In this document: one piece after another, positions 47,681-49,432 of the stretch
How positions within the stretch are numbered: the first letter of the stretch is position 1
Layout of the letters: each line of letters starts with the position of its first letter
Assembly (NCBI RefSeq): GCF_000317675.1
Contig: NC_019776.1
Location: 2,046,001-2,110,000, forward strand
Direction: 5' to 3'
Length of the DNA stretch: 64,000 nt
Source: Cyanobacterium aponinum PCC 10605
GTDB lineage: Bacteria > Cyanobacteriota > Cyanobacteriia > Cyanobacteriales > Cyanobacteriaceae
Position numbers and translations under genes: made by a program
Notes under the pieces: model-generated
Databases searched by the model: none
What the model saw: only the letters and a program-made list of their open reading frames with translations
Told to the model about the DNA's origin: nothing

Positions 47681-48760
47681 ATGAAAAAAATTATTATTGT
47701 CGGTAGTGGTATTGTAGGAAGTGCGATCGCATATGAACTAAGTAATAATTCTGAATTTGATATTACCTTAATCGATGAAAAAAATCCAGGCACGGGGGCA
47801 ACTGGGGCGGCTTTGGGAATTTTAATGGCAATTATTAGTCTTAAAACGAAAGGCAGAGCTTGGAAATTAAGGGAGTTAAGTCTTAAGCGATATAAAACTT
47901 TGATTTCCGAATTAGAAAATTTCACAGGTTTATCAATTCCCCATAATCGGCAGGGTATTGTCAAGTTATTATTTACAGAGGAACAACTTCAAAGATACGC
48001 AAAATTAGCCCAATTTAGGGCTTCTCAGGGCTATAAATTGGATATTTGGGATCAATCTTTATTAAAATTTCATTGTCCAGAAATTAACACTTCTTCAATA
48101 GTTGGGGCTGTTTATTCCCCTGATGATTGGCAGGTTAGTCCTACATTTTTAACTAAAGCCCTTGTCAAAGGTGCATCGATGAAAGGAGTTAAATGTATTT
48201 TCGGAGAGAAAGTTAAGGGTTTGAATATTCGTTCGGAAAATCATACTGAAGTTATTTTAGAAAATCAATCTTTATCTGCAGATATAGTAATTATAGCAAC
48301 GGGTTTAGGTACTTCTTCTCTATTAGAATCATTGCACATACCCATCGAAATTAAACCAGTATTAGGACAAGCATTGTTAGTAAAATATGACCAATGGCAA
48401 AGCAAAGAGGATTTTAATCCAGTCATTACGGGAAATGATATTCATATCGCCCCTATGGGTAATAATGAGTTTTGGTTAGGGGCAACCGTCGAATTTCCTG
48501 ATAGTAAGGGAGAAGTCATTGCAAAAGACCAATTATTACAAAATTTACGCTCAGATGCGATCGCATTTTGTCCCAGTTTAGCCCAAGCTCCCATCATGTT
48601 ATCATGGACAGGGAAAAGACCACGTCCCGAAGGGAAATCTGCTCCTATAATTGAAAAATTAGAACCCTACAAAAATATTATCTTAGCAACGGGACATTAT
48701 CGTAATGGTGTTTTACTAGCCCCCGCTACCGCTTTAATAATCAAAGAAATGATAACTTAA
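47681..48760 (+). CDS. FAD-dependent oxidoreductase of the DAO/DadA (glycine oxidase-like) family
   Basis: The 359-residue flavoprotein begins with the dinucleotide motif IIIVGSGIVGSAIAYELS, then GTGATGAALGILMA. A long substrate domain follows, and the C-terminal FAD tail reads LATGHYRNGVLLAPATALII. The HYRNG text is typical of glycine oxidase/ThiO-type members that oxidise small amines. In cyanobacteria ThiO-like proteins serve thiazole formation for thiamine, but thiG and thiS are not nearby, so substrate is open. I use the ATG at 47681; a GTG seven codons earlier is possible. The gene ends 3 bp inside the broken tautomerase gene on the opposite strand. Confidence 0.87.
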   Translation: MKKIIIVGSGIVGSAIAYELSNNSEFDITLIDEKNPGTGATGAALGILMAIISLKTKGRAWKLRELSLKRYKTLISELENFTGLSIPHNRQGIVKLLFTEEQLQRYAKLAQFRASQGYKLDIWDQSLLKFHCPEINTSSIVGAVYSPDDWQVSPTFLTKALVKGASMKGVKCIFGEKVKGLNIRSENHTEVILENQSLSADIVIIATGLGTSSLLESLHIPIEIKPVLGQALLVKYDQWQSKEDFNPVITGNDIHIAPMGNNEFWLGATVEFPDSKGEVIAKDQLLQNLRSDAIAFCPSLAQAPIMLSWTGKRPRPEGKSAPIIEKLEPYKNIILATGHYRNGVLLAPATALIIKEMIT

Positions 48761-49432
48761 AAAGTTGATCCATTCCAACCCCATAAATACCCTTTTGCGT
48801 CAGCAAATTCAATATATATACGATTTTTAGCTTCTTCTGTAGGAAGCCTCACACCTAGTTTTCGACAAAAACAATAATTAAACAGGTGTGAGATGAATTA
48901 CGGACAAGGTTTGTGCTATGATCTGATCAAGCGGTATAAGAAAGAGTAGCCGTAGTCGGCGAACTTCCCGTTGCAAAAAAAACCTAGAGACTACCTGTCA
49001 GATATTATCTGATAGCCCAAACCTCACTGTTCCTCTTAAACAAGTTGGAATACTTAAATGAACAAAGGTTGGTGACAAAACTAAACAGAATTATATGACC
49101 TCTGGAACGGGGGGGCAAAGCCTATCGCCAGAAAGTAAGTCTGGTTACTTCTCGAAGTAAAAAGCATTTCTTTGGGTAGGAAACCTACACCATAATCTTT
49201 GATTTGGTTTACGGTAGTTCACTCTGACTAGAACTCATTGTACCAACACTTTTAATTTCCAAATAGCACACAGGGTCAAAAGTACCAGCGAAACTCATGG
49301 GTAAATCAGATTCAAATATTGTCATTAATAAGACTCTGGTTTAACTAATTTATGGGATAAATTCTTCAATAAATCTTTGACTTTTTCTTGATCAGGATTA
49401 GCGATAGATGTTTGAACTTTAATTAAAGGCAT
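48757..49432 (-). pseudogene. disrupted MIF-type phenylpyruvate tautomerase
   Basis: On the minus strand from ATG 49432 the frame starts MPLIKVQTSIANPDQEK and stops after KPESY at a -1 frameshift near 49327. The next frame then reads MTIFESDLPMSFAGTFDPVC and YLEIKSVGTMSSSQ. After a roughly 326-bp insert, the last part is LGVRLPTEEAKNRIYIEFAD ending in GYLWGWNGSTF. These are the MIF/tautomerase family segments in order. Removing 48897-49222 exactly restores an in-frame link (SSSQ-II-SHLFN), but the earlier frameshift still breaks the gene. So two events have damaged it. Pro2, the catalytic residue of active tautomerases, was encoded. Confidence 0.85.
48897..49222 (+). mobile_element. ORF-less structured insert in tautomerase gene, HEARO/omega-RNA-like candidate
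   Basis: The insert is about 326 bp, read on the plus strand from just after ATGA (48893-48896) to ...GGTAGTTCAC (49215-49222). It is richer in G and C than its flanks and has no long ORF. Visible hairpins are GCCG-TAGT-CGGC, CAGATATTATCTG, TCTGG...CCAGA enclosing GGC-AAA-GCC, TTACTT-CTCG-AAGTAA and GTAGG-AAA-CCTAC. HEARO RNAs, the guide RNAs of IscB nucleases, are reported to insert behind ATGA/GTGA motifs, and IS605-type ends often finish in TTCAC-like text. The boundaries rest on where tautomerase coding resumes. The family assignment is tentative. Confidence 0.55.

Follow-up and report, generated by a model that had tools for sequence, protein, structure and literature searches.

What is the insert that splits a MIF-type tautomerase gene of Cyanobacterium aponinum PCC 10605, where does it begin and end, and what might it do there? 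The locus lies within a window of 64,000 nucleotides (the whole stretch of DNA that was analyzed) from a genome of 4.18 Mb. A first-pass annotation of the window had recognized an ORF-less insert in the tautomerase gene, which our analysis confirmed, as the insert holds no open reading frame of at least 50 amino acids, and had placed it at 48897-49222, right behind an ATGA. Its right end (...GGTAGTTCAC at 49222) proved exact by copy alignment, whereas the true left edge lies at 48831, behind TTAG, as indicated by a second copy in this genome (L002), related copies, and tnpB elements. The RNA-only element therefore spans 48831..49222 on the plus strand (392 bp) and contains neither tnpA nor tnpB; these edges were set by alignment to copies from its own and related genomes and by empty sites in G001, a genome of the same genus. 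The locus comprises the following features:

48757..48830, minus strand: MIF tautomerase pseudogene, 3' part (by comparison with the G001 ortholog)
48827..48830, plus strand: TTAG target, the presumed TnpB target-adjacent motif; the left flank reads TTTTTAG
48831..49222, plus strand: whole RNA-only element (copy alignment, empty sites)
48831..48896, plus strand: left end with subterminal hairpin 48848-48856/48884-48892, common to the tnpB elements of the same genome
48917..48922, plus strand: -10-like hexamer TATGAT (TATAAT in several relatives)
48927..49075, plus strand: class I 5' RNA domain (model R1, 120.7 bits)
48952-48957/48989-48994, plus strand: helix P2, GUAGUC/GACUAC (GUGGUG/CACCAC and other pairs in relatives)
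48995-49000/49010-49015, plus strand: helix P3 (covariation alignments)
49099..49113, plus strand: first omega-RNA scaffold hairpin, CCUCUG-GAA-CGGGGG, with loop GAA at 49105-49107
49173..49222, plus strand: right end, 94% identical over 50 nt to tnpB element L205 (genome G008) and 84% over 51 nt to L003 (own genome)
49223..49242, plus strand: presumed guide (right flank), located after TTAG in the G001 ortholog with one mismatch
49223..49432, minus strand: MIF tautomerase pseudogene, 5' part (by comparison with the G001 ortholog)

The search for further copies and for TnpB that the first-pass annotation had proposed was productive on both counts, yielding the second copy L002, with 74% identity to the window element, and tnpB elements with the same ends. 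The last ∼50 bp of the element recur at seven more places in the genome (L003-L009), six of which are the right ends of tnpB elements, while L004 is without tnpB. In L002 and in copies from five genomes of the same family, the common sequence extends leftward to 48831, right behind TTAG, and the alignment of L002 and the related-genome copies fixes the right edge at 49222. The tnpB elements of the genome start with the same left end, namely TTTAG followed at the element's edge by CTTA...GCCTCACGCC...GGCGTGGGATGAATCG. In all six, this end includes the hairpin and the ATGA, which at 48893-48896 is internal to the left end and not the insertion motif for which it had been taken. The arms of this hairpin are CCTCACACCT and AGGTGTGAG, so the subterminal-hairpin feature of IS200/IS605 elements is present in the 48831-49222 element; a right-end hairpin (ACACC..GGTGT) is seen in several related copies and is weaker in the window copy. 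The left end follows TTAG in the tnpB elements L003, L005-L009, and L205, and in those copies for which a left end was found, by a left-end pattern that itself required TTAG and that gave no such left end in L061, L073, and L139. The right end of a further copy, L026, is 100% identical to that of L205 over 50 nt. The 3' part of the element matches tnpB elements in two blocks, (i) a hairpin plus the GGATAAAGCCTATCG..GTAAG region, which in tnpB elements encodes the end of TnpB, and (ii) the right end. Because the left end and these two blocks, which lie within the last ∼125 nt, match tnpB elements, we assign the element to the IS200/IS605 type, without tnpA and tnpB. In genome G006, three 389-bp copies are 100% identical, have different flanks, and each sit behind TTTAG, which indicates recent movement there. 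A search of viral contigs with the element pattern gave 0 matches.

Separately, L004 (G000:C1:3076326) consists of a right end with a tnpB 3' end and no intact tnpB in front of it, and is apparently a decayed element.

In G001, the tautomerase gene is intact and syntenic. Besides carrying the insertion, the window gene lacks three stretches of this ortholog, one of 54 bp adjacent to the insertion and two others of 12 bp and 1 bp, and is thus a pseudogene; a search of the window's genome for the MIF family gave 0 matches. The G001 ortholog provided the empty site that the first-pass annotation had advised looking for, with boundaries that differ from a left edge at 48897. In it, the sequence that flanks the window element on the right is preceded by TTAG (one mismatch), and the 54 bp absent from the window start behind another TTAG of the gene, as if the left flank at the window site had been lost after insertion. 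The flanking coding DNA had been reported to join in frame upon removal of 48897-49222; this is a coincidence, since the left end is by chance free of stop codons in that frame (ISHLFNYCFCRKLGVRLPTEE) and the intact ortholog has other residues there. At L002, the empty site in G001 reads TTTTAG immediately followed by TCTAGTTCGGA: the left flank agrees with 3 mismatches in 299 nt up to TTTTAG, and the first 11 nt of the right flank then follow without a gap, after which G001 differs. The IS200/IS605 mode of insertion, 3' of a short motif and with no duplication of the target, is thus seen at this site, with right-flank agreement over 11 nt. At both empty sites (window and L002), the motif lies 5' of the guide start, a statement of position and not of function. 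The empty sites known here belong to the window's right-end type.

In place of tnpB, the element has a domain of ∼150 nt that separates its left end from the tnpB-like 3' part and for which DNA searches gave no match to tnpB elements; among the tnpB elements examined, none carries this class I 5' domain. Rfam 15 gave no family match of the domain at the cut-off in the window, and none up to an E value of 5 in nine other loci. A weak local match to RT-2 RNA (RF03077; AGUAGCCG..GGCGAA, 19.7 bits against a cut-off of 40) is absent in the nine other loci and was treated as chance. A pattern of the domain matched 45 stretches in named genomes, 31 of them cyanobacterial (Pseudanabaena, Microcoleus, Tychonema, Crocosphaera, Pleurocapsales, Geitlerinema, and others). 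The other 14, in other bacteria, read like coding DNA and were judged to be chance matches by eye, without model R1. In the window genome's order, 44 of 388 genomes have matches to model R1, with at most seven per genome, as do 11 of 386 genomes in a phylum-wide draw that overlaps the order set. Chance probably accounts for one of the R1 matches, that in G421, which has an E value of 8.4e-4 and 66% GC and is located close to the end of a contig.

A MAFFT alignment of 23 sequences supports three nested helices and one pseudoknot helix, P1, with 96.4% of cells paired and 29 cells changed on both sides, compared with 7.3 in shuffles; P1 itself shows no change on both sides. In a larger alignment, the nested structure is 97.1% paired, with 207 both-side changes (15 of 16 pairs) against 60 in shuffles; this alignment consists of 69 chosen matches (65 distinct rows) fitted to model R1, and it therefore leans toward the model. 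Helix P2 is paired in 100% and 98.2% of cells in the two alignments and has changes on both sides. As to the strong hairpins noted in the first-pass annotation, the whole insert folds no better than shuffled sequence (z -0.57 on the plus strand and -0.28 on the minus strand), whereas 48927-49030 alone reaches a z of -2.15 (7 of 200 shuffles equally good), and its structure is backed by covariation. We therefore rest the case for RNA structure on covariation and leave whole-insert folding out of it.

Upstream of the domain, TATGAT ends 6 nt before a conserved AAGCGG in the window. For 49 of the 69 matches, the 45 nt upstream include a loose -10 pattern, a count made without a chance control, and a formal promoter scan gave no plus-strand site within the element, including at TATGAT. 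In two copies, L174 (G279) and L169 (G190), the scaffold is interrupted by ∼67 nt that are bounded by GCGCGAAGGGGCGA...TCGCCCCTTNCGCGACC, apparently another small repeat.

Hairpins matching the first scaffold hairpin are present at the 3' ends of the tnpB genes L003, L205, and L043. In the window, the pseudoknot joins the GAA loop at 49105-49107 to UUC at 49218-49220. Across copies, the loop centre is GAA, GGA, GAC, or GGC, about 115-235 nt from the right end, and nucleotides -5 to -3 of the right ends are UUC, UUU, or GUC. We counted this pairing in 58 matches with a right-end motif, from which 3 repeats were dropped to leave 55 copies, two of them (L159 and L180) without a hairpin by our rule; L180 has one with a 6-nt loop. 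In 52 of the 53 distinct copies with the hairpin, all three nucleotides of the loop triplet can pair with nucleotides -5 to -3, whereas a shuffle control in which the ends were dealt anew gave a mean of 26.2 and a maximum of 38 in 1000. The one non-pairing copy, L186, is internally shortened. The hairpin rule keeps loop centres that start with G, so that the third pair is the informative one, and at this position A-U and C-G swap between right-end types. The right-end motifs used for this count, as well as for the tnpB counts below, were drawn up from these same sequences. The omega-RNA of ISDra2 likewise has a pseudoknot of upstream nucleotides with nucleotides -5 to -3, with GAA/UUC in both; the portion of PMC10097598 that treats the TnpB structure pairs -5U..-3C with -103A..-105G. 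We consider the pseudoknot the strongest single argument for the RNA being a TnpB guide RNA.

Among the 59 R1 matches with at least 400 nt of downstream sequence, none contains tnpB inside. A right-end motif is reached within 420 nt in 55 of the 59, and no same-strand TnpB-like ORF (defined by motif, at least 90 amino acids) starts earlier; one such ORF starts 1.7 kb past the right-end motif. The right ends fall into the types GTAGTTCAC, GTACTTCAC, GTATGTCAC, and GAGTGTCAA, and the left edges seem to differ with them: copies of the window's type have TTAG at the edge, 15 of the 16 listed GTATGTCAC-type copies have TTAAC, and 9 of the 15 listed GAGTGTCAA-type copies have TTAT, all as read by eye.

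Taken together, we consider it probable that the insert is a non-autonomous IS200/IS605-type element whose sole cargo is a stand-alone TnpB-type omega-RNA, with its right flank as the guide, served in trans by TnpA and TnpB. Its identity as a TnpB-type omega-RNA element is well supported, whereas we infer from sequence its transcription, TnpB binding, cutting, action in trans, and the function of its 5' domain. The first-pass reading of an omega-RNA-like insert without a nuclease, which would need enzymes encoded elsewhere, was in essence right. Candidate partners are encoded in the genome, where TnpB copies with the same ends include four 418-aa open frames between stops (L003, L006, L007, and L009). 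The proteins of L003 and L205 have three TnpB Pfam domains each, and TnpB is present in 12 of 12 carrier genomes tested, a figure to be read in light of TnpB being common and of carriers alone having been compared. There are 10 TnpA matches in the genome; these ends were found at none of their loci.

TnpB is generally accepted to cut the donor site once the element has been excised, which leads to the element being copied back. Under the proposed mechanism, transcription would start near 48929, behind TATGAT, and would run through the right end into the flank, of which the sequence from 49223 on would become the guide. TnpB from the relatives with open frames would bind this RNA in trans, and the complex would cut TTAG plus guide, that is, the empty donor site after excision, whereupon the element would be copied back. 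TnpA, which must come from elsewhere, would act in trans on the element ends. The 5' domain may replace the role of the tnpB mRNA, providing an RNA with its own start, and it probably protects the 5' end or aids TnpB binding. A guide search of the genome, within 3 mismatches of an 18-letter pattern, found the element's own flank only.

An unlikely alternative, though the best of those we weighed, is that the RNA keeps the TnpB-binding scaffold to act as a decoy, that is, as a sponge or inhibitor of the TnpB of autonomous relatives, without targeted cutting. Conservation of the scaffold and the presence of an extra 5' domain would suit such a role. The exact junction of right end and guide and the left-edge motif, which a decoy would not need, are nevertheless kept, although transposition alone could keep them.

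We give slightly less credence to a passive MITE, in which a deletion derivative of a tnpB element is moved by TnpA and its RNA has no function. The ends are indeed those of tnpB elements, and the absence of an ORF of at least 50 amino acids fits; but the 5' domain found no counterpart in tnpB elements in the DNA searches, and this domain and the long-range pseudoknot covary across genera and right-end types, which already disfavours this alternative.

Nuclease-dead TnpB-like repressors exist, and a stand-alone RNA could, by reasoning, serve any TnpB-like protein, including one that regulates genes. We regard a guide RNA for such a repressor as improbable, given that the right flanks differ among copies, except for one-locus copies in related genomes, and that all three TnpB domains are present in those matching TnpB proteins that were tested. 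Still less probable is a remnant of a self-splicing intron or IStron, as might be suggested by a structured RNA in an element of ∼390 bp inside a gene: Rfam scans of both strands of the window and of nine other loci gave no group I or II intron match, and the RNA strand is antisense to the interrupted tautomerase gene, which already disfavours this alternative. The family proposed in the first-pass annotation, a HEARO RNA serving as an IscB guide and inserted behind the ATGA, has next to no likelihood, as the ends, the TTAG target, and the 3' scaffold are of the TnpB-type IS200/IS605 kind, the suggested Rfam HEARO check gave no match in the window or in nine other loci, and the genome gave no IscB (RRXRR) match, in a search whose control was silent too.

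The preferred reading, a TnpB-type omega-RNA element, has precedents for several of its parts. ORF-less IS605-type elements and stand-alone IscB omega-RNAs are already known, as are TnpB guide RNAs, and Altae-Tran and colleagues reportedly described stand-alone IscB omega-RNA copies in Ktedonobacter in 2021. The MITEs and PATEs of the IS200/IS605 type, whose ends are used in trans, and Nezha are likewise short and without an ORF and have been described by their ends, whereas the present element is filled by a guide-type RNA that is conserved and covaries; Nezha is a cyanobacterial MITE according to a title cited in PMC10969869. HEARO/IscB omega-RNA (RF02033) is also a structured RNA in a mobile element, but it differs in the nuclease family and in the side of the guide, which lies in the 5' region in what PMC9755519 says of it, and its model, as noted, finds no match here.

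The closest likeness is to the omega-RNA (reRNA) of ISDra2 and other IS200/IS605 TnpB elements, in which the 3' end is the transposon right end, the right flank is the guide, and insertion occurs next to a short motif; placement of the guide 3' of the right end in TnpB-type elements accords with sections of PMC10097598 and PMC8612924. Ordinary omega-RNA overlaps the 3' end of tnpB (PMC10097598, in the section concerned), and TnpB cuts omega-RNA out of its own mRNA (PMC10278001, in the passage concerned). In the window element, there is no overlap with tnpB, and a structured 5' domain of ∼150 nt behind a -10-like box is found instead; since the element contains no tnpB, we regard it as a variant and not as an ordinary TnpB omega-RNA. 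RNAs derived from RAGATH-18, a structured family found to be IS607 TnpB guide RNAs, differ in that an upstream tnpB co-occurs with them, as stated in the relevant part of PMC11061315, whereas none does here. In the full-text literature, a tnpB-less TnpB guide-RNA element or this 5' domain did not appear among the matches listed, in so far as their text was covered, which is no proof of absence from print.

A second class of elements without tnpB in front of the right end is represented by L027, L029, L030, L032, L033, and L035. These class II copies have the same 3' part and a different, shorter 5' part around GGCGAAAACCAAGCC. Model R2, built from the six copies, assigned scores of 60-71 bits to four class I copies and of 29-40 bits to three tnpB ends, and it gave 50 listed places of at least 75 bits in 388 genomes, where the absence of tnpB was checked for the six seeds only.

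We suggest tentatively, and with somewhat less than even confidence, that RNA-only transposons form a large and ancient class in cyanobacteria, that is, free guide-RNA genes with their own promoter and at least two kinds of 5' domain (classes I and II), which would reprogram TnpB in trans by the flank of each copy and would serve several TnpB families (right ends TTCAC, TGTCAC, and TGTCAA). If true, these would be living examples of a guide RNA uncoupled from its nuclease gene, the step required for the origin of type V CRISPR from TnpB, and would show how guide and nuclease genes could separate before CRISPR-Cas12; a split of the omega-RNA ancestor into a separate RNA gene has been proposed, in the pertinent lines of PMC10097598. 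A widespread guide-RNA-only element would also show TnpB working in trans in nature and would demonstrate the ability of guide RNAs to turn into selfish genes in their own right. The 5' domain, as a structured RNA without an Rfam family match, is directly testable.

As a minor observation on model R2, four genomes belonging to a single genus each have a pair of matches on the same strand, separated by ∼590 nt, at G282:C1:5344746 and 5345337, G256:C121:1099 and 1689, G235:C1:534293 and 534883, and G240:C84:13040 and 13632.
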